Shown one piece after another: positions 17,566 through 59,522 of a stretch of DNA of 64,000 bases. The DNA comes from Candidatus Nyctobacter psychrophilus (GTDB lineage Bacteria; Vulcanimicrobiota; Vulcanimicrobiia; Vulcanimicrobiales; Vulcanimicrobiaceae): NCBI GenBank assembly GCA_014305025.1, contig JACRTY010000001.1, positions 1-64,000 on the forward strand. Reading direction: 5' to 3'. The translations under genes were made by a program, and so were the position numbers. Position 1 is the first letter of the stretch, and the number at the start of each line of letters is the position of its first letter. The notes beneath the pieces are model-generated. The model did not search any database. It saw only the letters and a program-made list of their open reading frames with translations, and was not told the DNA's origin.

Positions 17566-18944
17566 GGCGCCCGGACCGCTGTGCGACCGTTGAACGGCCA
17601 ATGCGCAGAGCGCAAGGCCCAGAGTCCGTACACGGCGACGCCCGCGCCCAGACTGACGACTCCAAAGAGCATGGCGGCAGAACCGGCCGCCGTAAAGATG
17701 TACAGCCAGCCCGCCAGCGCTACGATTGCGGGCAGCGGAAACAACCACATGCGGTACGGGGCGCGGACGTTGCGGGCGCGCACCATGCAGAGTGCAGCGA
17801 TCTGCGCGGCGGAACCGACCAGCACGATGCCGGTGGTTAAGGCGTTAATCACTTGGTCCAGCGGAAAAAGACAGGCCGGCAACGCGATCAGCCCCATCAC
17901 GACGAGCGACACGTCCGGAAATCGGCCGCTGGGGTGCACGTGCGCGAACGGCCGCAGGAACACGCCGTCCGCCGCGGCCGCGTACGGCACGCGCGAGTAG
18001 CCCAGCAGATTTCCGTACACCGAAGCAAAGGCCGTCACGAGGATGAGGGCCGTCACGATGACCGCCGCCCCCGCACCGAAGGACCGTTCCACCACGGCGG
18101 CGGCGACGTGTTGTCCGAGCGGCGGCAGCGAGCCGTCGGAAAGCGGCACGAGGGCTTGCCAGCGGATGGCACCCAGCACCCCGCATTGCATGGCGACGTA
18201 CAGGCATGCGACCAGCGCGATCGAGATGAGGATCGAGCGCGGTATGGTGCGGGCGGGATCGCGTACTTCACCGCCGATGCAACTCGACTGATTGTAGCCC
18301 AGGTAGTCATACATCGCGATGATCAGCGCTTGGCCGAAGCCGGCGCCGAAGCCGCTCCAAAACGAATCGTGGCGCGGCAACGCCACGGCAGTCGCCGGCG
18401 AAAAGTGAGCGTAGGCCCCGATGATGACGCACGCCAGCGTGAGCAGCGCGGCGACTGCCATCAGGACGCCGAGCCGCGCCACCGTCGTGATGCCACGATA
18501 CAGCGCGAGCAACGTGATGACTCCGACGCCGACCGCGACGGTCTTGAGGGCAATGGGGGATTGCAGCACGGGGAACAGATAGCCGGCGTAATTCGCAAAG
18601 CCGATGTAGCCCGTCGCTTGATTGAGCGGCGCGACGAAGATCGTCTGCCACACGAACAAAAAAGCCAGCAGCCGCCCGAGCCGTTCGCGTCCGAAGACTT
18701 CGAGCAGATAGCCGTACGTGCCGCCCGAACCCGGATAGAGCGAGCCCAACTCCGCCCACACCAGACCATCGCACAGCGCCAGAACGGCGCCCGCACCCCA
18801 GCCGATGAGCGACAGGGGGCCATGTAGCGCGCCGAGCACGAGCGGAATCGTGATCAGCGGCCCGATCCCGATCATCGAGATCACGTTGAGGGCAATCGCT
18901 CCGCGCAGGCCGACGCCGCGGACGAGCGGCGCGTCTTTTACAAT
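17562..18944 (-). CDS. APC-superfamily amino acid/amine transporter
   Basis: About 460 residues with 12-13 membrane helices. GVGLRGAIALNVISMIGIGPLI is the conserved first helix of the APC family (unwound GIG motif for substrate binding). LVWAELGSLYPGSGGTYGYLLE and DYLGYNQSSCIGGEVRDPART are further APC hallmarks. It would import or exchange an amino acid or amine. Oddity: no in-frame ATG, GTG or TTG occurs between the upstream gene and the middle of helix 1. The best-placed start is an ATT at 18944, overlapping the upstream stop; CTG at residue ~12 is an alternative. The start is therefore provisional. Confidence 0.85.
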   Translation of the reverse strand: MVKDAPLVRGVGLRGAIALNVISMIGIGPLITIPLVLGALHGPLSLIGWGAGAVLALCDGLVWAELGSLYPGSGGTYGYLLEVFGRERLGRLLAFLFVWQTIFVAPLNQATGYIGFANYAGYLFPVLQSPIALKTVAVGVGVITLLALYRGITTVARLGVLMAVAALLTLACVIIGAYAHFSPATAVALPRHDSFWSGFGAGFGQALIIAMYDYLGYNQSSCIGGEVRDPARTIPRSILISIALVACLYVAMQCGVLGAIRWQALVPLSDGSLPPLGQHVAAAVVERSFGAGAAVIVTALILVTAFASVYGNLLGYSRVPYAAAADGVFLRPFAHVHPSGRFPDVSLVVMGLIALPACLFPLDQVINALTTGIVLVGSAAQIAALCMVRARNVRAPYRMWLFPLPAIVALAGWLYIFTAAGSAAMLFGVVSLGAGVAVYGLWALRSAHWPFNGRTAVRAP

Positions 18945-19639
18945 GATGCACTCGCAGGGGGTGCGGTGCTGCGCGGAATCACGAACGTCGATGGCGGGAG
19001 CGACGCTGGAAACTGATACGCGCTCCAGGCGATGCGCTCGTGCGCCCGCGAGCCGTTGGTCAAGCGGGCGGTAATCTGCGCCGTGCGTACGACCCAATAT
19101 CGGTCGGTCCGACCGTAGCGCAGCTCACCGTTGCCGTGGGCGCCGTTGCCTGCAACGCGAAAGCGCACGACCGCCGGCAAGAACGTCGCGGCGTCGAGTT
19201 CCACCGCGGTGACGCTGAATGGCGCCGCGGCGCGCGCAATGGTCTTGAAGACGTACGCATGGTGCCGCAATCCGATAAATTTGAAGTCGTATGCGGACGG
19301 GCGCGGTGCGACGGCGAGGATGTCGTAGCGGTCCACGGGGTTCTCGACGATCCGAATCGACGGGACCGGCAGCGGTACCCCGTCGGCGGCAAGCGTCTCG
19401 TCGCGCTCACGCGGGCCGCTGCGGTACACGCGGTGCGTCTGCTGGAGCGTGCGCAGACCGAGTTGTTCGACGGTAAATTGAAACGAGACGCTCTTGGGCC
19501 GCCGCACGGTAGCAAGCGCATGACCGTAGCGTGCCAGCACCGCGCTGGGCGCAAGCGCGGGTGCGCCGTCGGGATGCGCCGCACGCGCGGCGAGCATGAC
19601 GACCGACGGCGCGAGCAGCAGCAGCCGAAAGCGGTTCAC
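18938..19639 (-). CDS. Exported hypothetical protein
   Basis: 233 residues with an N-terminal signal peptide (MNRFRLLLLAPSVVMLAARAA). The mature part is beta-rich: VSFQFTVEQLGLRTLQQTHRVYRSGPRERDE, then VENPVDRYDILAV, and an alternating-strand C-terminus (GELRYGRTDRYWVVRTAQI). The pattern of long strands is reminiscent of LolA-like lipoprotein carriers or outer-membrane lipoprotein-sorting proteins, but I cannot confirm this. ATG 19639 overlaps the alaS stop (ATGA). Its own stop TAA at 18938 abuts the APC transporter. Confidence 0.7.
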   Translation of the reverse strand: MNRFRLLLLAPSVVMLAARAAHPDGAPALAPSAVLARYGHALATVRRPKSVSFQFTVEQLGLRTLQQTHRVYRSGPRERDETLAADGVPLPVPSIRIVENPVDRYDILAVAPRPSAYDFKFIGLRHHAYVFKTIARAAAPFSVTAVELDAATFLPAVVRFRVAGNGAHGNGELRYGRTDRYWVVRTAQITARLTNGSRAHERIAWSAYQFPASLPPSTFVIPRSTAPPASASL

Positions 19640-22295: not shown

Positions 22296-22424
22296 CTACT
22301 GCCGGCGGCGGGCGCTTAACTCGCGATTGATCCGTTTTTGTTCTTGGAATCCGCCCCAATACAAAAAGGCGCTGAACACGGCCGCAAAGAGCCCCATCAG
22401 CAGTCCGGCCACTTCGGGAGTCAC
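22296..22424 (-). CDS. 42-residue single-pass membrane protein
   Basis: A short frame in the gap between the sigma factor and alaS, reading VTPEVAGLLMGLFAAVFSAF and then LYWGGFQEQKRINRELSARRRQ. It has one transmembrane helix with an acidic N-terminus and a strongly basic cytoplasmic tail. GAGG lies 8 bases before the GTG and overlaps the sigma-factor stop, and the spacing (10 bp from the sigma stop, 23 bp to alaS) fits an operon member. No family is recognised. Composition and context argue against chance, but it is short. Confidence 0.6.
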   Translation of the reverse strand: MTPEVAGLLMGLFAAVFSAFLYWGGFQEQKRINRELSARRRQ

Positions 22425-22434
22425 GTCGCCAACC

Positions 22435-23256
22435 TCACTTTTCCGACAGAACGTCGCGCAGTTTCTCGAGGGCCTTCTGCTGCAGCCGCGAGACGTGCAT
22501 CTGAGACACGTTAAGCCGCTTGGCGATCTCCGTCTGCGAGACCGATTCGTAGAACCGCAGAAAGAGAATGATGCGTTCCCGCCGCGAGAGGACCTCGAAG
22601 GCCCGTTCCAAGTTGGTTCGGTCTTCGAGATTCGCCAGCGACGGATCGATCTTGCCGATGTACGCCGCGAGGGTCTGCGCGTTCTTGTCGCCTTCGCCGG
22701 TAACTTCGGTATCGAGCGAGAGCAGATTATACGCCTGCCCCAGTTCCTGCGCTTCGAGGATCTCTTCCTCGGAGGCGCTGAGATGCCGCGCGAGTTCCTT
22801 GACCGTCGGCGAGTGACCGAGGTTGACGGTCAGTTTTTCAATCGCGCGGTTGACGGCCAGATTGAGTTCTTGCAAGCGCCGTGGAACCTTGACGGCCCAC
22901 CCTTTGTCGCGGAAATAACGCTTGATTTCGCCGACGATCGTCGGCGTCGCATACGTCGTGAACTCGACCCCGCGCTCGAGATCGAAGCGGTCGATCGCTT
23001 TGATCAAACCGACCGTTCCGACTTGGATCAGGTCATCGAGGGCTTCGCCGCGGTTGGCGAACTTGACGGCCAGATAGCGCACGAGGTTGAGGTGCGCGAC
23101 GACCAGCGCGTCGCGCAGGCGGTCCGCTTCGAGCGCGTTGCGGTCGCGCGCCGCCGCGAGGCGGCCGAACGCGTCGCGCGTGCGCGCGCGATCCCAACGC
23201 TCTTCATAAGCGTGGGTTGCGGATTCCATCGGTTTTGGCGAGTCGTTCGCGATCAC
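22435..23256 (-). CDS. RNA polymerase sigma factor, SigB/SigF (group 3) family
   Basis: 273 residues. Region 2 is LVRYLAVKFANRGEALDDLIQVGTVGLIKAIDRFD with FTTYATPTIVGEIKRYFRDKG for -10 recognition. Region 3 follows (NRAIEKLTVNLGHSPTVKELARHL). Region 4 holds the C-terminal helix-turn-helix SQTEIAKRLNVSQMHVSRLQQ for -35 recognition. There is no region 1.1, as in stress or sporulation sigma factors controlled by partner switching. The GTG start at 23256 overlaps the anti-sigma stop (GTGA), so synthesis is coupled to its likely inhibitor. It should bind core RNA polymerase when released by RsbW. Confidence 0.95.
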   Translation of the reverse strand: MIANDSPKPMESATHAYEERWDRARTRDAFGRLAAARDRNALEADRLRDALVVAHLNLVRYLAVKFANRGEALDDLIQVGTVGLIKAIDRFDLERGVEFTTYATPTIVGEIKRYFRDKGWAVKVPRRLQELNLAVNRAIEKLTVNLGHSPTVKELARHLSASEEEILEAQELGQAYNLLSLDTEVTGEGDKNAQTLAAYIGKIDPSLANLEDRTNLERAFEVLSRRERIILFLRFYESVSQTEIAKRLNVSQMHVSRLQQKALEKLRDVLSEK

Positions 23257-23684
23257 GTACCGACGCGCTTGACCATGACCAGCTCGGTACCCATCTGCGG
23301 ATCGATGCTGTACTCGAGTTCGTCCATCAGCGCTTGAATGAGAAAGATGCCGAGGCCCTCGACGGCCGGTGCTGCGCCGGCCCGCGCCGCCTCCGAGCCC
23401 GTCGCGCGCAGCCGGTAGCGGTGATCGCGAATCACGATGCGGAGATGACTGGTGAGCGTCTCGCAGGTCATGTCGATCGTCTCACCGCCCGCACCGTGTT
23501 GAATGCAGATCGTACACGACTCCGCGATCGCGAGCTTGAGATCTTCGATCTCTTCGACCGAGAACGGAAGCCGATTGGCAATGGCCGCCACCGCCAACCG
23601 GGCGACCGCCACCCATTCGGGTTTACTCGGGATCCGTAGCTCGACCGTGCCGAGATGCTCGGCCATGGCCGCGGCAGCGTTCAT
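23253..23684 (-). CDS. rsbW: Anti-sigma factor / serine kinase (RsbW/SpoIIAB type)
   Basis: 143 residues with a GHKL-type ATPase fold. EEIEDLKLAIAESCTICIQHG is the N-box helix; it keeps the Glu (AES) but has Cys-Thr where Asn is typical (usually EACTNA or EALTNA). EGLGIFLIQALMDELEY is the G2 region. Such proteins bind the sigma factor or phosphorylate the anti-anti-sigma protein on serine. The changed N-box could weaken kinase activity. The 5' end overlaps rsbV and the 3' end overlaps the sigma gene, each by 4 bp. Confidence 0.88.
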   Translation of the reverse strand: MNAAAAMAEHLGTVELRIPSKPEWVAVARLAVAAIANRLPFSVEEIEDLKLAIAESCTICIQHGAGGETIDMTCETLTSHLRIVIRDHRYRLRATGSEAARAGAAPAVEGLGIFLIQALMDELEYSIDPQMGTELVMVKRVGT

Positions 23685-24025
23685 GCAAAGGCTTTCTGGG
23701 CGCCCGTTTCATCGTCGTAGATGCCGAAAATCTTCACGAGGCCCGTGATATCGAAGATCTTCTTGATCTGCGGATTCGTGCAAACGAGGTTGACCGTCCC
23801 TCCGTGTTCTCGTACGCGCTTGAGTCCCCCGATCAGCACGCCCAAACCCGTCGAGTCGATGTATCGAACCTTTTCGAGATTGATCACCAAATTATAATGG
23901 CCCTGATCGATCAGTTCGGTGATGGCGTCCTTGACCTTGGGCGAAGTATAGACGTCGATCTCGCCGCCTAATTCGACGACGTACGCATCGTCGTCTGACT
24001 CGCGCACGTGCACTTTGATATCCAA
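23681..24025 (-). CDS. rsbV: Anti-anti-sigma factor (STAS domain, RsbV/SpoIIAA type)
   Basis: 114 residues forming a single STAS domain. VVELGGEIDVYTSPKVKDAI is the first conserved block, and IDSTGLGVLIGGLKRV contains the serine that RsbW phosphorylates. Unphosphorylated protein would sequester RsbW and free the sigma factor. AGGAGA lies 8 bases before the ATG, a good ribosome-binding site. The gene begins 22 bp after the YtxH-like stop and ends in an ATGA overlap with rsbW. Confidence 0.95.
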   Translation of the reverse strand: MDIKVHVRESDDDAYVVELGGEIDVYTSPKVKDAITELIDQGHYNLVINLEKVRYIDSTGLGVLIGGLKRVREHGGTVNLVCTNPQIKKIFDITGLVKIFGIYDDETGAQKAFA

Positions 24026-24047
24026 GATGTCTCCTATGGAGGAGGAA

Positions 24048-24221
24048 CTATGGCGTTATTGCCTCGATCGGTTTCTTTTCACGAGCGCCTTCGTCCGCTT
24101 TCGCGCGGAGCAACTCGCGCACGTCGGGCGCGGCCGTCGGAGTCAGCAGCATCGCCAGGCAAGCGCCGACCAGTGCTCCGGTCAACCAACCCGCCAAATA
24201 CGTTCCATCCCCGCGTTTCAG
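24048..24221 (-). CDS. YtxH-like small membrane protein, apparent CTG start
   Basis: 57 residues: KRGDGTYLAGWLTGALVGAC then LAMLLTPTAAPDVRELLRAK and a charged tail. The glycine-patterned hydrophobic helix followed by LLTPTAAPDVRELL matches the YtxH (general stress / gas-vesicle-like) family, which tethers a coiled coil to the membrane. The frame is bounded by an in-frame TGA just upstream and has no ATG or GTG at the expected N-terminus. A CTG at 24221 overlaps the DUF948 stop as CTGA and gives (M)KRGDGTYLAGWL, the expected family start. A TTG at about residue 9 is the alternative. Confidence 0.72.
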   Translation of the reverse strand: MKRGDGTYLAGWLTGALVGACLAMLLTPTAAPDVRELLRAKADEGAREKKPIEAITP

Positions 24222-24610
24222 GACGCGAGCTCATGCTCGCTACCGTGCCGCGGTAGCGTCGCGGCATCGTCGGGCTTGGAGCGCCGCAAGCCGCTGACCA
24301 CATTGTTAACCGCCGTACCAACTTGAGTCGCGATGCTCGTCGCCTTGGCCGCCACCGACTCGAGTTGCGCCACCGCCAACCCCGCCCGCGCCAGGGTCGA
24401 GTCCGCCGTGTTGGCAATGCCGCCGACGTGCGTCAACGTGGTTGCGACCGGAACGCCGAGCGTCGCGATCTGTCGATCCACTTCGTCAAGCGTCTTACCG
24501 AGGCGCGAAAGAACGTTGGTCAACGCGATGCAGACGAGCAGAATGGCGACCCCGATGAGCACCGAGCCGATGCCGATGCCGACCGACCACCATTGAGTCG
24601 TTGTGCTCAA
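24218..24610 (-). CDS. DUF948 domain membrane protein
   Basis: 130 residues. An N-terminal transmembrane helix (WWSVGIGIGSVLIGVAILLVCIAL) precedes an amphipathic coiled-coil segment (VLSRLGKTLDEVDRQIATLGVPVATTLTHVGGIA), the hallmark of DUF948 proteins. These often neighbour YtxH genes in stress operons of Gram-positives. Function is unknown. It overlaps the cysteine desulfurase stop (ATGA at 24607-24610) and the YtxH-like gene downstream, so it lies within one translationally coupled run leading to the partner-switching genes. Confidence 0.85.
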   Translation of the reverse strand: MSTTTQWWSVGIGIGSVLIGVAILLVCIALTNVLSRLGKTLDEVDRQIATLGVPVATTLTHVGGIANTADSTLARAGLAVAQLESVAAKATSIATQVGTAVNNVVSGLRRSKPDDAATLPRHGSEHELAS

Positions 24611-25806
24611 GAATGTACCTCCGAGCGGCCCGCACCCGAGCCGGGATGAAATGTACCCAGATCGTCACCGGCGACACGAACTGCGCCGACGACGTCTTCA
24701 ACCATCCGCGCCAAGCGCTCCACGTCCTGCACGCCGGTCGTTTTCCCAAACGAAAAGCGTAAGGTACCATGCCTCACCCAGGGCGGAACGTCGAGCGCCG
24801 CGAGCACGTGGCTCGGCTCACCGGCACCCGAGGCACATGCGCTGCCGGCGGATACCGCCCCGCCCGCGAGGTCGAGCGCGACCAGCAACGTCGTTGCGGA
24901 GGCCCCGCGAAACGCGATGCTGGACACGTTGGGCAAGCGCGGCGCGCCGCGCGCGTTGACCCGGCAGTGCGCGACCCGCGCCAGCACCGTTGCTTCGAAC
25001 CGGTCCCGCAGCGCCGCCAGCCGCGCGCTCTCGAACGGACGCTCGGCGACGGCCAACTCGAAGGCCGTCGCCAAACCGGCGGCGCCGGCGACGTCCTGGG
25101 TTCCGGAGCGTAGTCCGTTCTCTTGACCGCCGCCGACCGCAAGCGGCGCCAGCAGCGTTCCGGGGCGCACGTAGAGCACGCCGACGCCATGGGGTCCGTA
25201 GAACTTGTGTGCCGATAGAGACAGGAGGTCGATGCCCAGCGCCTCGACGTCCAGCGCCAGGGCTGCGGCGGCGGCGACGGCATCGGTGTGGAAGGTCACG
25301 CCGCGCGCGCGGGCAATGCGCGCCAGCTCCGCGATCGGCTGCACCGTCCCCAGCTCATTGTTGGCCAGCATGATGGAGGCGAGCACGGTGCCGGGCTGCA
25401 GCGCTGCGGCGAACGCCCCGGGGCCGATACAGCCGTCGGAATCGACCGGCAGCACCGTCACGGCGAAGCCCTCGGCCTCGAGCCCTTCGCACGCGCGTAG
25501 CACGGCAGGGTGTTCGGTCGCCGCGGTGACGACGCGCGCGCCGGGCGCCTTCCGGGCACGGGCGGCGCCCACGACGGCAAGGTTGTCGGCTTCCGTACCG
25601 CCGCTCGTGAAGACAACGTCCCGTGGGGCTGCACCGAGCAGCCGGGCAACGCTCGCGCGCCCTTCCTCCAGCACGGCCCGCGCCCGTCGCCCCTCGGCGT
25701 GCAGCGAGCTGGCATTTCTGGGAGCGTCGCCGAGATAGGGCAACATCGCCGCCTGTGCCTCGGGGCGCAACGGCGTCGTCGCGGCGTGGTCGGCGTAGAT
25801 GCGCAT
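24607..25806 (-). CDS. Cysteine desulfurase (NifS/IscS family)
   Basis: 399 residues, a PLP-dependent class V aminotransferase-fold enzyme removing sulfur from cysteine for Fe-S clusters or tRNA thiolation. YADHAATTPLRPEA starts the fold. FTSGGTEADNLAVVGAA, ATEHPAVL and DAVAAAAAL supply PLP contacts. SAHKFYGPHGVGVLY holds the Schiff-base lysine and SAGSACASG the persulfide cysteine. It heads the minus-strand operon with the sigma partner-switch genes. Without iscU, sufU or trmU next to it, NifS, IscS and tRNA-related roles cannot be separated. Confidence 0.93.
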   Translation of the reverse strand: MRIYADHAATTPLRPEAQAAMLPYLGDAPRNASSLHAEGRRARAVLEEGRASVARLLGAAPRDVVFTSGGTEADNLAVVGAARARKAPGARVVTAATEHPAVLRACEGLEAEGFAVTVLPVDSDGCIGPGAFAAALQPGTVLASIMLANNELGTVQPIAELARIARARGVTFHTDAVAAAAALALDVEALGIDLLSLSAHKFYGPHGVGVLYVRPGTLLAPLAVGGGQENGLRSGTQDVAGAAGLATAFELAVAERPFESARLAALRDRFEATVLARVAHCRVNARGAPRLPNVSSIAFRGASATTLLVALDLAGGAVSAGSACASGAGEPSHVLAALDVPPWVRHGTLRFSFGKTTGVQDVERLARMVEDVVGAVRVAGDDLGTFHPGSGAGRSEVHS

Positions 25807-25828
25807 CTCTTTACGTTTGGCAGCCTAC

Positions 25829-28600
25829 ATGCCGCCGTCCCCTGGGCCGATAACTCCACAGACGCATGTCCAGGCCCGAACGGTGAAGCTTCGCTCCCAT
25901 TCGCGCCCCCTGCTCGGCTTACGACTGGGGGCGATTGCCTGCGCCCTCGCGGTCCCCGTCGTCGCCCTGGCGCTGGGCGAGGACGCCAAGATCGACCGCG
26001 AAATAATGCAGCTCCGGCGGGAGAAGGTCGCGGTCCACTGGATCGCCTTGGCCGATCAGTTGGTCAACGACATTGAAATGGCCGAAAGCGGAGCGAGCCA
26101 CCATATGTCCGCAACCGCACTGGCGCGCATCGACGGCCGGCGCGAGAATCTGCAGCGCTTCAGCGCCGATATAGCGGGCGCCGTTCCGAGCGCCCCCGGG
26201 GCCTTTGCCCAAATCGACCGCGCTTGGAAGGCCGAGGCGGCGGCGCCCAGCGGCGTGGCACTTGCCCACCTGGCAACGGAAGGAGGATCGGCGCTCGACT
26301 CCGTCTCCGACAGCTCACAACTTTCGTTCGAGTCGCACGTGTTCATCGCGGATCTGGGCGACGCGCTCGACAACAGCTACTACCGCGTGTTTTCACCACT
26401 GGGCGCAGCGGCCGAGACGATGCAAGCCGGTTCACTGTCCTTCGGCGAGCGCATTCAGATCGCCGGCGGCATCGCACTCGCACGGCAGTTCAAACACGAA
26501 CTTTTCAACGATATCCAACCGGCGATGGATACTGCGCCCGGCAAAACCGTGACGCTTGGCCTGCGTTGGCACGCAGCCCTCGATTCCGCGAGCACTCTCG
26601 AACGTGATCTCGACGCAGCGATCCAAAAACCTCAGGGCCGTCTTGCGCCGCGCGTGCTGCGCGGCGAGCGGCTGCGGCTCGCCGCACGAACCTCCGAATT
26701 CATCACGACGTTGGAGGCCGACACCGACTCCGAGCTCGCCCAGCTCCAAGGTCAAGATCGGAGGGCGAAGCTGACGATTCTGGCAGCGGCGCTGCTCGGG
26801 ATCGCGCTGATCGTTGCGCTCGGGACCGTCGCCTTGCGGCTCATCGGCCGTCGTGACCGCCGCGAGCTCGAGCGCGCGCGGCAAGATGCGCGTGCGCTCC
26901 AGGCCGAACTCGGACGCCAGCACGCCGAACGCGCCCGGATGTTGACCGAAGCACAATTCGACGCGGTCTTCGACCGTTCGCAGATGGGCATCGCGCTGCT
27001 CGACGGCGAGGGAATGGTCGTCGAGTGCAACCCGGCGCTGCGCACGATGCTCGGCAGCGCAAGTCCCGTACTCGTCGCGCCAAACGATCCGCACTTCGAG
27101 GCGCTTGCCGCCGGCCGGTCCGCGACCTATCAGCATGAGACCGCGCTCGAACGGAGTGACGGCACGCCGCGCTGGTCCCAAATTACCATCTCGTCGGTCG
27201 ACGTTCGTTCGGAATCGGTCGCGGCGATCGCGATGGTTCAAGACATCAGCGAACGCAAAGCGATCGAGGAACGCCTGCGATATGCCGCCTCGCACGACGA
27301 CCTGACGTCGCTGCTCAATCGCACGCAGTTCTTGGCGCGCTTGAGCGCGGTGCTCGTCGACCACGCCATCGCCAGCACGTATTCGGTGCTTTTCGTCGAC
27401 CTCGACCACTTCAAACTCGTCAACGATACGCTGGGACATTCCGCGGGCGACCGGGCCATCATGATCACGGGCGAACGGCTGCTCGCGACGACGCGGCCCG
27501 ACGATGTCCTGGCGCGATTGCACGGCGACGAGTTCGCGCTGCTCCTCGCGGACACCGATGGTGCCGGTGCTCGTGCCGCCGCGGATCGCATCAAGGAGCA
27601 TCTGCTCGCGCCCATCCACTTCGGGGAAACGTCGTTCGGCTTGACCGCCAGCATCGGCATCGTGACCGAACTCGAACGGTACGTGTCGGCGGAGTACGTC
27701 ATGCGCGACGCCGACGTGGCGATGTATCACGCCAAGAGTCTGGGCCGCGCCAACGCCGTCGTGTTCGACGGCGAAATGCAGGAGCGCGTCAGCGAGCAGA
27801 TGCGCATCCTGACCGACCTGCGCACGGCACTGCCGCGCAACGAGATTTACGTCGCCTACCAACCGATCGTTGCGGTGCGCACCTCGGAAGTGCTGGGTTT
27901 CGAAGCGCTGTTGCGCTGGCGCAGCCCGACCCTGGGCGACGTCCCGCCGTCCGCCTTCATTCCGGTAGCCGAAGATTCCGACGCGATCCACGAACTCGGG
28001 CGGTTCGCGCTGACGGAGACGTGCGCGATGGTGCGGCGGCTCGACGTGGCCGGCGCTCCGCCGCTGCGCGCCAGCATCAACCTCTCGGTGGCGCAACTCG
28101 TCAAGGGCGACATCGCTGCGGAGGTGCGCACGGCGGTCGCCGACGCCGGCATCGATGCGGAACGGCTGACGCTCGAGATCACCGAAAGCGGGCTGCTGGA
28201 AAACAAGGCGCGCGCGCACGAAGTGCTCGACGAATTGCACCGCATCGGCGTCAAACTGTGCATCGACGACTTTGGGACCGGATATTCGTCGTTACGCTAC
28301 CTGCACGAGTTTCCGATCGACGTCTTGAAGATCGATCGGTCGTTCGTCAACGGCGCCGACGGTGAGCTTGCCAACCCGGCGATCGTCGACATGCTGCTCA
28401 GCCTCTCGCGTCACCTCGACGTCGTCGCTATCGCCGAAGGGATCGAAACCGAAGCGCAACGCCGCGCGTTGCTCGAGGCCGGCTGCGAAGCGGCGCAAGG
28501 CTTTCTGTTCGCCCGCCCGCTGCCCGAAGCGCACTTCATGACGTGGCTACGCGCCGGCGAAGAATTACGTGAAGCCGCAGCGGCGGTCAAAGCAAGCTGA
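25829..28600 (+). CDS. Membrane GGDEF-EAL protein with PAS domain (c-di-GMP phosphodiesterase likely)
   Basis: About 923 residues. TM1 lies near 30-50, then a ~280-residue extracytoplasmic helical sensor region, then TM2 (LTILAAALLGIALIVALGTVAL). A PAS-like domain is followed by GGDEF (about 480-650) and EAL (about 670-920). The GGDEF active site reads HGDEF (about 565), so cyclase activity is doubtful, while FVDLDHFKLVNDTLGH is kept. The EAL domain looks intact: FEALLRW (about 691), NLSV, EITESGLLEN, DDFGTGYSSL (about 812) and EGIET. It probably degrades c-di-GMP with the GGDEF as a GTP sensor. The start is uncertain: ATG 25829 or GTG 25883. Confidence 0.92.
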   Translation: MPPSPGPITPQTHVQARTVKLRSHSRPLLGLRLGAIACALAVPVVALALGEDAKIDREIMQLRREKVAVHWIALADQLVNDIEMAESGASHHMSATALARIDGRRENLQRFSADIAGAVPSAPGAFAQIDRAWKAEAAAPSGVALAHLATEGGSALDSVSDSSQLSFESHVFIADLGDALDNSYYRVFSPLGAAAETMQAGSLSFGERIQIAGGIALARQFKHELFNDIQPAMDTAPGKTVTLGLRWHAALDSASTLERDLDAAIQKPQGRLAPRVLRGERLRLAARTSEFITTLEADTDSELAQLQGQDRRAKLTILAAALLGIALIVALGTVALRLIGRRDRRELERARQDARALQAELGRQHAERARMLTEAQFDAVFDRSQMGIALLDGEGMVVECNPALRTMLGSASPVLVAPNDPHFEALAAGRSATYQHETALERSDGTPRWSQITISSVDVRSESVAAIAMVQDISERKAIEERLRYAASHDDLTSLLNRTQFLARLSAVLVDHAIASTYSVLFVDLDHFKLVNDTLGHSAGDRAIMITGERLLATTRPDDVLARLHGDEFALLLADTDGAGARAAADRIKEHLLAPIHFGETSFGLTASIGIVTELERYVSAEYVMRDADVAMYHAKSLGRANAVVFDGEMQERVSEQMRILTDLRTALPRNEIYVAYQPIVAVRTSEVLGFEALLRWRSPTLGDVPPSAFIPVAEDSDAIHELGRFALTETCAMVRRLDVAGAPPLRASINLSVAQLVKGDIAAEVRTAVADAGIDAERLTLEITESGLLENKARAHEVLDELHRIGVKLCIDDFGTGYSSLRYLHEFPIDVLKIDRSFVNGADGELANPAIVDMLLSLSRHLDVVAIAEGIETEAQRRALLEAGCEAAQGFLFARPLPEAHFMTWLRAGEELREAAAAVKAS

Positions 28601-58282: not shown

Positions 58283-58654
58283 ATGAACGTCGACGTTCAA
58301 ACGAGCGATTGCGAGAAGCTCGAAATACTCGAGCATCAAGCGGTGCATGCCCTGCGGATTCACCAGGTCTGGCGGGCGACGGTACGCGCATTGACCGCGG
58401 CCGACGGCAGGACGCCGCCGGCGCACGTATCGGAACGAGCTTGCGAGATCGACATGTGGTTGCGCCTGGGACTTCACCCCGCGTTCCGCGGACTGCCGCT
58501 GTACGAGCAGACGCTCCAGGCGCACGCGGCGTTTCATCGTGCCTTGGCAGCCCTCTACGCCGACCGCTCGGCGTCGAGTCGTGAGGTCGCGATGAGCGCG
58601 ACCATCCTCAAGGATTGTCTCGAAGATTGGTTGACGCTGGCGCGTCGTCGCTAG
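58283..58654 (+). CDS. Stand-alone CZB-like (chemoreceptor zinc-binding) domain protein
   Basis: 123 residues, all helical. HALRIHQVWRATVRAL, SERACEIDMWLRLGLHPAF and QAHAAFHRALAALY give a His, then Cys, then HxxFH spacing like the CZB domain, which binds zinc with three His and one Cys and senses zinc or hypochlorous acid in chemoreceptors and diguanylate cyclases. It has no attached signalling domain. Its 3' end overlaps the convergent SpoIIE-type phosphatase gene by 47 bp. A hemerythrin-like fold is the main alternative. Confidence 0.65.
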   Translation: MNVDVQTSDCEKLEILEHQAVHALRIHQVWRATVRALTAADGRTPPAHVSERACEIDMWLRLGLHPAFRGLPLYEQTLQAHAAFHRALAALYADRSASSREVAMSATILKDCLEDWLTLARRR

Positions 58655-59522
58655 CATCCGCCGCAATCCGCACCGCGAGGATCGCGATGTCGTCGTGCGC
58701 CGGCCGGTCGGAAAAGGTCAGCGCCCGATCGGCTAGCGTGCGCGCCAGCACGTCGACCTGCGCGTCGCGTTGTTCGCGCACCACGTCGAGCATACGCTCC
58801 ATGCCGAAAAATTCGCGCCGGCCACGGCGCGATTCCGTAATGCCGTCGGTCACGGCAACCAGCAGCGTGCCGGGCCCGATCGCCACACTTCGCTGCTTGA
58901 AGAGATGCTGCTGATCTTCGAAAACGCCCACCGCCGGCGCCGTAACGTCGAGCACGACGGGCTCGCCGCCGGGAGGGACCAGCACGACGCCCTCGTGCCC
59001 GGCGGACGCATACGTCATCATCGAACGCTCGGCATCGAGATGGCCGAAGAACACCGTGGCAAACGATTCGGTCAGTTCAAAAGCGGTGTTTTCGAGGTAG
59101 AGCCGATCGAGCGAACGTAAAACTTTTTCCGGATTGAACCCCTCCGAGGCGTACGCGCGCAATCCATACTTGACCATCGCGGCTTGAACCGCCGCGCGCG
59201 TTCCCTTGCCCGAGATGTCGGCGACGGTAAAGGCGACCGACGCATTATCGAAGCCGTACACGTCGACGAGGTCGCCGCCCGCGCGCCCTTCGGCCAGCCG
59301 GTAATGAATCGCATAGGCGATGCCCTTCACCGGCACCGGAATCGGCGAGAAAAGGTGTTCGACCAGCACTTCGGCGGCCTCACGGCTTTCGCGGTGCTCG
59401 AAGCGGTCCTCGCCGCCGATCGAGACGAAGCTTTGTCCGGTATAGTCGGCGCCCTCGGGGATCGCGGCCGGCGTTACGATCGGTCGAAGTTCGTCGCCTC
59501 GAGCTTGGCCCGGCGTCGGCAA
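58608..59522 (-). CDS. SpoIIE/RsbU-type PP2C serine phosphatase
   Basis: 304 residues. RLAEGRAGGDLVDVYG, VADISGKGTRAAVQAAMVKYGLRAYA, TYASAGHEGVVL, VAVTDGITESRRGR and PAHDDIAILAVRI carry the metal-binding acids of PPM/SpoIIE phosphatases, which dephosphorylate RsbV-type proteins. The ~65-residue N-terminus has no recognised sensor domain. The TTG start at 59522 follows the glyA stop by one base. It is the only such phosphatase here and the likely activator of the RsbV-RsbW-sigma module 35 kb away. Confidence 0.9.
   Translation of the reverse strand: MPTPGQARGDELRPIVTPAAIPEGADYTGQSFVSIGGEDRFEHRESREAAEVLVEHLFSPIPVPVKGIAYAIHYRLAEGRAGGDLVDVYGFDNASVAFTVADISGKGTRAAVQAAMVKYGLRAYASEGFNPEKVLRSLDRLYLENTAFELTESFATVFFGHLDAERSMMTYASAGHEGVVLVPPGGEPVVLDVTAPAVGVFEDQQHLFKQRSVAIGPGTLLVAVTDGITESRRGRREFFGMERMLDVVREQRDAQVDVLARTLADRALTFSDRPAHDDIAILAVRIAADASDDAPASTNLRDNP

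Follow-up and report, generated by a model that had tools for sequence, protein, structure and literature searches.

A partner-switching sigma factor module of Candidatus Eremiobacterota with a degenerate ATP site in its RsbW anti-sigma factor

Genes of the locus and family assignment

The first 64,000 nucleotides of contig JACRTY010000001.1 (C8) from Candidatus Nyctobacter psychrophilus, a soil bacterium of the Candidatus Eremiobacterota with a 3.2-Mb genome in 58 contigs, have been analysed; this whole stretch is called here the window. It contains a module formed by the genes of an anti-anti-sigma factor (RsbV), an anti-sigma factor with a degenerate ATP site (RsbW) and a SigB/SigF/SigG-type sigma factor, preceded by genes of two small membrane proteins. 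The gene order given in a preliminary description of this DNA, iscS, DUF948, YtxH, rsbV, rsbW, sigma, a 42-aa membrane protein and alaS, all on the minus strand, was confirmed, and the proposal of an RsbV-RsbW-sigma partner switch accompanied by DUF948 and YtxH genes is supported by family matches and position. The features are the following:

25806-24607, minus strand: cysteine desulfurase (IscS/NifS type), a neighbour of the module; PF00266, 236 bits; its 3' end holds the predicted module promoter
24677-24653, minus strand: SigB-type promoter (predicted) with the sequence GTGT-N15-GGGTAC, in which GGGTA begins 48 nt ahead of the start codon of DUF948
24610-24218, minus strand: DUF948 (YtxG-like) membrane protein, 130 aa; PF06103, 28.9 bits, under the 37.2 cut-off
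24197-24048, minus strand: small membrane protein resembling YtxH, 49 aa when started at TTG; PF12732, 26.5 bits, under the 37.5 cut-off
24025-23681, minus strand: RsbV anti-anti-sigma factor with the phospho-Ser motif YIDSTGLG; STAS, 84.4 bits; TIGR00377, 107 versus a cut-off of 53.45
23684-23253, minus strand: RsbW anti-sigma factor with a decayed ATP site; HATPase_c_2 (PF13581), 66 bits, cut-off 27.4
23256 (or ATG 23229) to 22435, minus strand: SigB/SigF/SigG-type sigma factor; TIGR02980, 282.7 bits, cut-off 234.35
22424-22296, minus strand: 42-aa predicted membrane protein, poorly conserved; no Pfam family
about 22272-19636, minus strand: alanyl-tRNA synthetase (alaS), a neighbour outside the core module; PF01411, 599 bits

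The cysteine desulfurase matched the NifS and IscS NCBIfam models with scores under their equivalog cut-offs. As both the DUF948 and the YtxH matches are below their Pfam cut-offs, the identity of these two proteins, and with it a YtxGHJ-type assignment (YtxG being presumably a DUF948 protein), is drawn only from their conserved position: with profiles built from 40 relatives and the window, DUF948 was found in 39 and YtxH in 38 of these relatives. The genes had been described as joined by 4-bp overlaps or short gaps; for DUF948 and YtxH, a 4-bp overlap would require an upstream CTG start, because the earliest ATG, GTG or TTG in the YtxH-like frame is the TTG at 24197. The 42-aa protein gave a tblastn match in only one of the 40 relatives, tblastn being weak for such a short query.

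RsbV scored over the TIGR00377 cut-off and carries a phosphorylatable serine in D-S-T-G-L-G, the two features of an anti-anti-sigma factor. Among the features of RsbW/SpoIIAB kinases, the RsbW of the window displays the GHKL fold, the G2 box and the N-box Glu, and lacks the N-box Asn, the G1 box and scores over the NCBIfam RsbW/SpoIIAB equivalog cut-offs (90 versus 145, 76 versus 155.05 and, for SpoIIAB, 65.7 versus 135). An anti-sigma factor without these kinase motifs thus adjoins its sigma gene, as in a split partner switch.

Degeneration of the RsbW ATP site

The N-box Asn normally serves as a ligand for the metal of ATP-Mg, and the Asp of the G1 box makes contact with the adenine (PMC10017428, excerpt). 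In a comparison with Bacillus subtilis RsbW and SpoIIAB, the N-box, E-A-C-T-N in B. subtilis RsbW, reads E-S-C-T-I in the RsbW of the window, so that the ATP site is indeed abnormal, as had been noticed; the replacement previously read as CT for TN is in fact a change of Asn to Ile with the Thr kept, and an additional loss, that of the G1 box D-x-G-x-G, had been overlooked. The G1 position reads D-H-R-Y-R in the window, and the B. subtilis RsbW, the best hit, itself reads D-E-G-D-S there. The G2 box (GLGIFLI) and the Glu of ESCTI are retained.

Comparative analyses were carried out with a phylum set of 149 genomes, in which relatives were grouped as the family of the window (f1, 99 genomes including its own), the same order (f2), the same class (f3) and others. 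All 41 genomes searched at E <= 0.001, that of the window among them, gave an RsbW match, as did 94 of the 99 f1 genomes (E <= 1e-14); an RsbV match was detected in 138 of the 149 genomes of the phylum (E <= 1e-25). Second rsbV-rsbW copies are present in G016, G073, G107 and G112 (L100, L116, L216 and L217), a contig end cutting one copy in G107 and G112. Three loci from records titled Rhodospirillales or Proteobacteria (L227, L230 and L293) encode an RsbV 78-96% identical to that of the window and are probably mislabelled metagenome-assembled genomes of Eremiobacterota.

The RsbW alignment comprised 133 rows with profile scores >55 bits, of which 131, from 129 genomes, could be scored, two being cut off by contig ends. 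Of these 131 orthologues, 72 have the N-box Asn and 59 lack it; by scope, it is kept in 72/114 within the class and in 0/17 outside it. The position is taken by Ala (22), His (13), Tyr (5), Ser (4) or Thr (3) and, more rarely, by Ile, Met, Cys or Arg (2 each) and by Gly, Lys, Leu or Phe (1 each). The N-box Glu is retained in all 131. Among Asn-bearing proteins 50/72 retain the G1 box (scored by its Asp and first Gly), versus 30/59 Asn-less ones, and therefore the decay of Asn and that of G1 are not tightly coupled. The largest Asn-less clade (21 rows on one branch) has Ala instead of Asn; its G1 box keeps the first Asp and Gly, and G2 is intact where covered. The distant relatives G145-G148 have lost the G1 Asp and the lid as well.

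On a tree built from RsbV, sigma, IscS and AlaS, without RsbW, by a quick method, with some long branches and 28 rows under half filled, the Asn state has changed at least 12 times, 10 of these changes being forced by well-supported branches. On this tree the window forms a group with G007, G015 and G085; in all of them the Asn is replaced by Ile or Met and the G1 box is missing. Loss of Asn is taken as the direction of change because B. subtilis RsbW, SpoIIAB and most RsbW-like paralogues have it, the tree giving no polarity, and some changes (e.g. those in G097, G022 and G062) may be regains. The paralogues of the same organisms keep Asn in 42/45 cases, the three exceptions (Tyr) being among the nine best-scoring; this set derives from 47 sequences (40 of 49 weaker matches plus seven from the genome of the window), two of the 47 having been missed by the profile. 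A Fisher test of 59/131 versus 3/45 gave p = 1.2e-6, a value that is not leaned on here because the sequences are related and thus not independent. In three high-scoring f3 paralogues, L307, L309 and L310 (G040, G030 and G034), Tyr occupies the N-box position and no G2 glycines are aligned.

As judged from these alignments, the abnormal N-box of the window exemplifies a kinase-site decay that has recurred in the anti-sigma factor of this phylum. Searches of the open-access PMC literature, judged by listing, yielded no usable account of a degenerate N-box in an RsbW-type anti-sigma factor or of a deficient partner-switch HATPase nor, among the entries listed, of RsbW as a pseudokinase or of a loss concerning RsbW and RsbV; the open-access PMC articles on Eremiobacterota sigma factors contained, judged by title, nothing on RsbW decay. 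On ytxH together with rsbV one article was found, which treats the B. subtilis SigB regulon, and nothing usable was found on the order of alaS and desulfurase genes.

Selection on RsbW and predicted fold

The dN/dS ratio of RsbW was 0.009-0.258 in 14 close Asn-less pairs and 0.029-0.175 in five Asn-keeping pairs, and that of RsbV did not exceed 0.113 in any of the 19; these values come from a simple counting method applied to hand-picked pairs, with some synonymous distances near saturation. In the 12 pairs in which iscS was measured it gave 0.074-0.356, with RsbV below iscS in 12/12 and sigma in 11/12. These ratios indicate that RsbW is under purifying selection, also in the Asn-less copies, and rule out that it is a pseudogene. 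An AlphaFold2 model of the window RsbW (50 sequences) reached a pLDDT of 85.6, with a low-confidence lid, and its best Foldseek match was the B. subtilis RsbW 6m36 (E 1.3e-11), consistent with a retained fold.

The RsbV serine, phosphatases and candidate trans kinases

The D-S-T serine motif of RsbV is kept in 142/143 sequences, the remaining one being truncated, and it persists also alongside a decayed RsbW or in the absence of an adjacent one. PP2C domains were found in 147/149 genomes, and three PF07228 matches in the genome of the window, one of them within the window itself:

58608-59522, minus strand: PP2C (SpoIIE/RsbU-type) phosphatase ORF; PF07228, 144.1 bits at 58665-59243

This protein is a candidate RsbV phosphatase, although it is not a conserved partner, with matches at E <= 1e-50 in 8/41 genomes, own included. 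Its gene lies directly downstream of one read by eye as glyA. No link between loss of the RsbW Asn and loss of PP2C was evident, PP2C being nearly universal in the set; this was judged without a formal test.

Other GHKL proteins with an intact N-box occur in all six Asn-less relatives examined (G010, G011, G013, G017, G049 and G056), and the genome of the window encodes five (L001, L002, L004, L005 and L006). In G115, G119, G144 and G056, PP2C and HATPase_c_2 domains are found in one long frame or adjacent (L364, L359, L370 and L368, respectively), arrangements that are possibly phosphatase-kinase fusions like Rv1364c.

Gene order across relatives

Synteny was analysed in the 40 relatives and in 27 loci outside the class. 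All 40 relatives have rsbV, rsbW and sigma as one contiguous core, iscS lies upstream in all 36 loci with room for it, and alaS lies downstream in 36/40, within 200 nt in 24 and farther away in 12; in the other four alaS was not found in the stretch examined. In f3 alaS is within 200 nt in 14/14. The sigma-alaS gap is larger in the closest relatives (1514 nt in G015, 751 nt in G007 and 1036 nt in G085), and in G009 and G013 a GGDEF/EAL-like match in opposite orientation is located between both genes. The neighbourhood in the class follows the order murA-mreB-sua5-lptA/C-rarA-iscS-...-alaS, with rarA reversed in f3, and looks like a housekeeping cluster that contains the sigma module. In the window, a PAS-GGDEF-EAL gene (25799-28600, plus strand) is divergent from iscS, and a 233-aa protein encoded after alaS (18938-19639, minus strand) is matched in most of the 40 relatives and has no clear NCBIfam match.

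Outside the class the core is present in 17 of the 27 loci, iscS is upstream in 4 of the 20 with room, and alaS is downstream in one. The order proposed earlier is therefore kept within the class, and outside it iscS and alaS are mostly missing from the vicinity. By contrast, YtxH was found within 340 nt upstream of rsbV in 21/27 of these loci. In the remaining ten no RsbW or SigB-type sigma was detected beside rsbV, some contigs ending nearby and diverged genes being possibly missed by the profiles; YtxH precedes rsbV in nine of them. Such YtxH-RsbV pairs without adjacent RsbW or SigB-type sigma, with the serine motif kept, include L187, L190, L196, L199 and L207 (G115, G119, G125, G128 and G144). 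A SigBFG search in 15 genomes, the ten with a core-less rsbV and five without a strong rsbV match, some of the assemblies being incomplete, yielded a score over the cut-off only in G133; G128 gave a match at 203 bits, below the cut-off.

The widest conserved unit is thus YtxH-RsbV, usually plus RsbW-sigma, with iscS and alaS mainly as class-level neighbours. Because in ten genomes outside the class no RsbW or sigma was found beside rsbV and no sigma over the SigBFG cut-off was found anywhere in the assembly, the YtxH-RsbV pair may, more speculatively, serve a second purpose that does not depend on a sigma factor.

Predicted promoter of the module

Listed promoters of B. subtilis SigB consist of a GTTT-like -35 box and a GGGTA -10 box, with spacers of 14-16 in the tested class (PMC7824861, excerpt). 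A GGGWA starting between -56 and -30 of the DUF948 profile start was found in 69/92 f1 loci, compared with 876 of 26,289 background windows (3.3%). In the same interval the motif appeared before rsbV in 2/93, rsbW in 0/93, alaS in 3/74 and ytxH in 37/91 loci. A GTKT precedes GGGWA by 19 or 20 nt in 26 of the 69 loci, any other offset from 10 to 33 being represented at most twice. Both boxes occur within 130 nt of DUF948 in 27/92 loci (background 0.0066), and no such pair was found before iscS (0/70), rsbV (0/98), rsbW (0/97), sigma (0/93) or alaS (0/77). In 34/68 loci the -10 box is situated beyond the stop codon of iscS. In the 19 post-stop loci that have a GTKT, GTGTAA or GTGTAG mostly includes the iscS stop codon; in six loci of the wider clade of the window (G000, G007, G015, G016, G022 and G085) GTGT is kept inside the reading frame.

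Two other groups of sites were considered and rejected as promoters. The GTTTGCT-N-GGGTAT sites located before DUF948 in 7/14 f3 loci are taken as conserved coding sequence because of their distance to the point where the iscS profile match ends, 46 nt upstream of it in six cases and 43 nt in the seventh. The 42 ytxH-proximal sites of f1 are also coding, since they occur in a single phase of the DUF948 frame and encode G-L-R-R-(L/F)-V-T-G-K, R-L-K-R-F-V-G-G-N or similar peptides.

These results suggest that the stress module has its own promoter, which from its sequence would be autoregulated. Separate promoters upstream of rsbV and alaS had been put forward as what would argue against a single operon; the search, which covered SigB-type sites, located a predicted one, but upstream of DUF948.

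Proposed mechanism and alternative explanations

With moderate confidence, we favour a split switch in which RsbW, with little or no kinase activity left, serves as an anti-sigma factor, RsbV receives its phosphate in trans and the module is expressed from its own promoter. The sigma factor would be held by RsbW and would be freed when unphosphorylated RsbV draws RsbW off; phospho-RsbV would be unable to bind, and a PP2C phosphatase would reactivate RsbV on stress, the presumed input. Since the RsbW of the window lineage is devoid of both the Asn that coordinates Mg-ATP and the G1 box, it is probably no longer an RsbV kinase and would be retained as an anti-sigma factor. With its ATP signature lost, the switching step is probably carried out by another protein, and a different GHKL kinase of the RsbW type would phosphorylate RsbV in trans. 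The genes DUF948-YtxH-RsbV-RsbW-sigma would probably be transcribed from the sigma-dependent promoter predicted in the iscS end.

Several observations weigh against this proposal. The RsbV serine could be kept for structural reasons, and in the Ala clade, with the G1 residues named above and the covered part of G2 intact, weak use of ATP may remain. Intact GHKL proteins are common, also where RsbW is intact, so that no particular trans kinase is singled out, and one match in the genome of the window (L007) has an internal stop. With respect to the promoter, GGGWA is also over background before sigma (10/89); conservation of the -35 box, weaker than the -10, is partly coding because GTGTAA/GTGTAG mostly holds the iscS stop; and the two-box site before DUF948 or ytxH is absent in f2 (0/4) and outside the class (0/21), the 3/14 sites of f3 being taken as coding.

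It is rather unlikely, though plausible, that RsbW is still an active kinase in an ordinary SigB switch, the kept Glu, the G2 box and a lid residue binding ATP without the Asn. The universal Glu, the G2 box of the window, the first Asp and Gly of G1 in the Ala clade and the invariant RsbV serine would fit such an enzyme, as would the sensor kinase VanS, which has a non-consensus G1 and weak ATP binding, but an intact N-box Asn (PMC10017428, excerpt). On the other hand, both N-box and G1 are gone in the window clade, and G1 Asp and lid also in G145-G148; the 13 different residues at the Asn position are unlike one alternative ligand, and the paralogues mostly keep Asn.

A switch independent of any kinase, in which RsbV and sigma compete for RsbW by amount or another signal (YtxH, membrane or redox) without phosphorylation, is improbable. 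The frequent position of YtxH upstream of rsbV outside the class, also where no rsbW or sigma was found beside it, could reflect such a signal, and the mycobacterial RsfA is under disulfide rather than phosphate control (PMC7693655, excerpt); conservation of the RsbV serine and of PP2C phosphatases throughout the phylum argues against it.

The functional link suggested in the preliminary description, an operon from iscS to alaS that would tie a stress sigma factor to sulfur/Fe-S supply and alanyl-tRNA charging, is very unlikely and unsupported by the synteny of the 40 relatives and the phylum, since, despite the constant iscS, the frequent alaS and the tight spacing of f3, in 16/40 relatives alaS either lies beyond 200 nt or was not found, both genes are mostly distant outside the class, a SigB-type promoter-like box sits before DUF948 at the iscS end, and the dN/dS of RsbV and sigma is below that of iscS in nearly all pairs.

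Comparison with known systems

The gene order rsbV-rsbW-sig is that of B. subtilis, and SpoIIAA-SpoIIAB-SigF has the same arrangement. The module of the window resembles RsbV-RsbW-SigB in this order and in the RsbW fold (6m36), and differs in the decay of the ATP site. It shares its protein families with the sporulation system, SpoIIAB structures having been matched, although the sigma factor (185.8 versus a cut-off of 321.45) and RsbW (65.7 versus 135) score below the cut-offs of the spore SigF and SpoIIAB models. The predicted promoter is similar to those of B. subtilis SigB in its GGGWA -10 box, GTTT-like -35 box and spacer of about 15 (PMC7824861, excerpt). The B. subtilis ytxGHJ operon is under SigB and SigH (PMC6568419, excerpt), and here, too, DUF948-like and YtxH-like genes follow a SigB-type promoter-like site; unlike in ytxGHJ, the pair precedes the sigma module itself, and both matches are under the Pfam cut-offs.

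A precedent is the SigF switch of Mycobacterium smegmatis, in which RsbW1 binds SigF and has no kinase activity on RsfB, whereas RsbW2, which has the motifs, is the RsfB kinase (PMC7693655, excerpt). Both systems have a SigB/F-type sigma factor and an antagonist with a conserved phosphorylatable serine; an anti-sigma factor that does not phosphorylate the antagonist, with the kinase encoded elsewhere, has been shown in M. smegmatis and is predicted here from motifs. In contrast to M. smegmatis, the decayed RsbW is still encoded between RsbV and sigma, the decay recurs inside a single phylum and is graded, ranging from a full set of motifs to a complete lack of them, and DUF948 and YtxH are part of the module.

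Significance

In the usual picture, one protein both binds the sigma factor and phosphorylates its antagonist. If the kinase site has been lost many times with the serine of the antagonist kept, these two jobs would separate readily. More tentatively, the kinase half of the anti-sigma factor may have been repeatedly discarded across Eremiobacterota with RsbV almost frozen, RsbV acting as a shared hub for kinases and phosphatases in trans. Matched pairs of intact and decayed RsbW orthologues allow tests of what the kinase activity is for, and caution is advisable in annotating such genes as 'serine-protein kinase RsbW'. If the proposal is true, the phylum would offer a natural series of a switch evolving from self-contained to networked.

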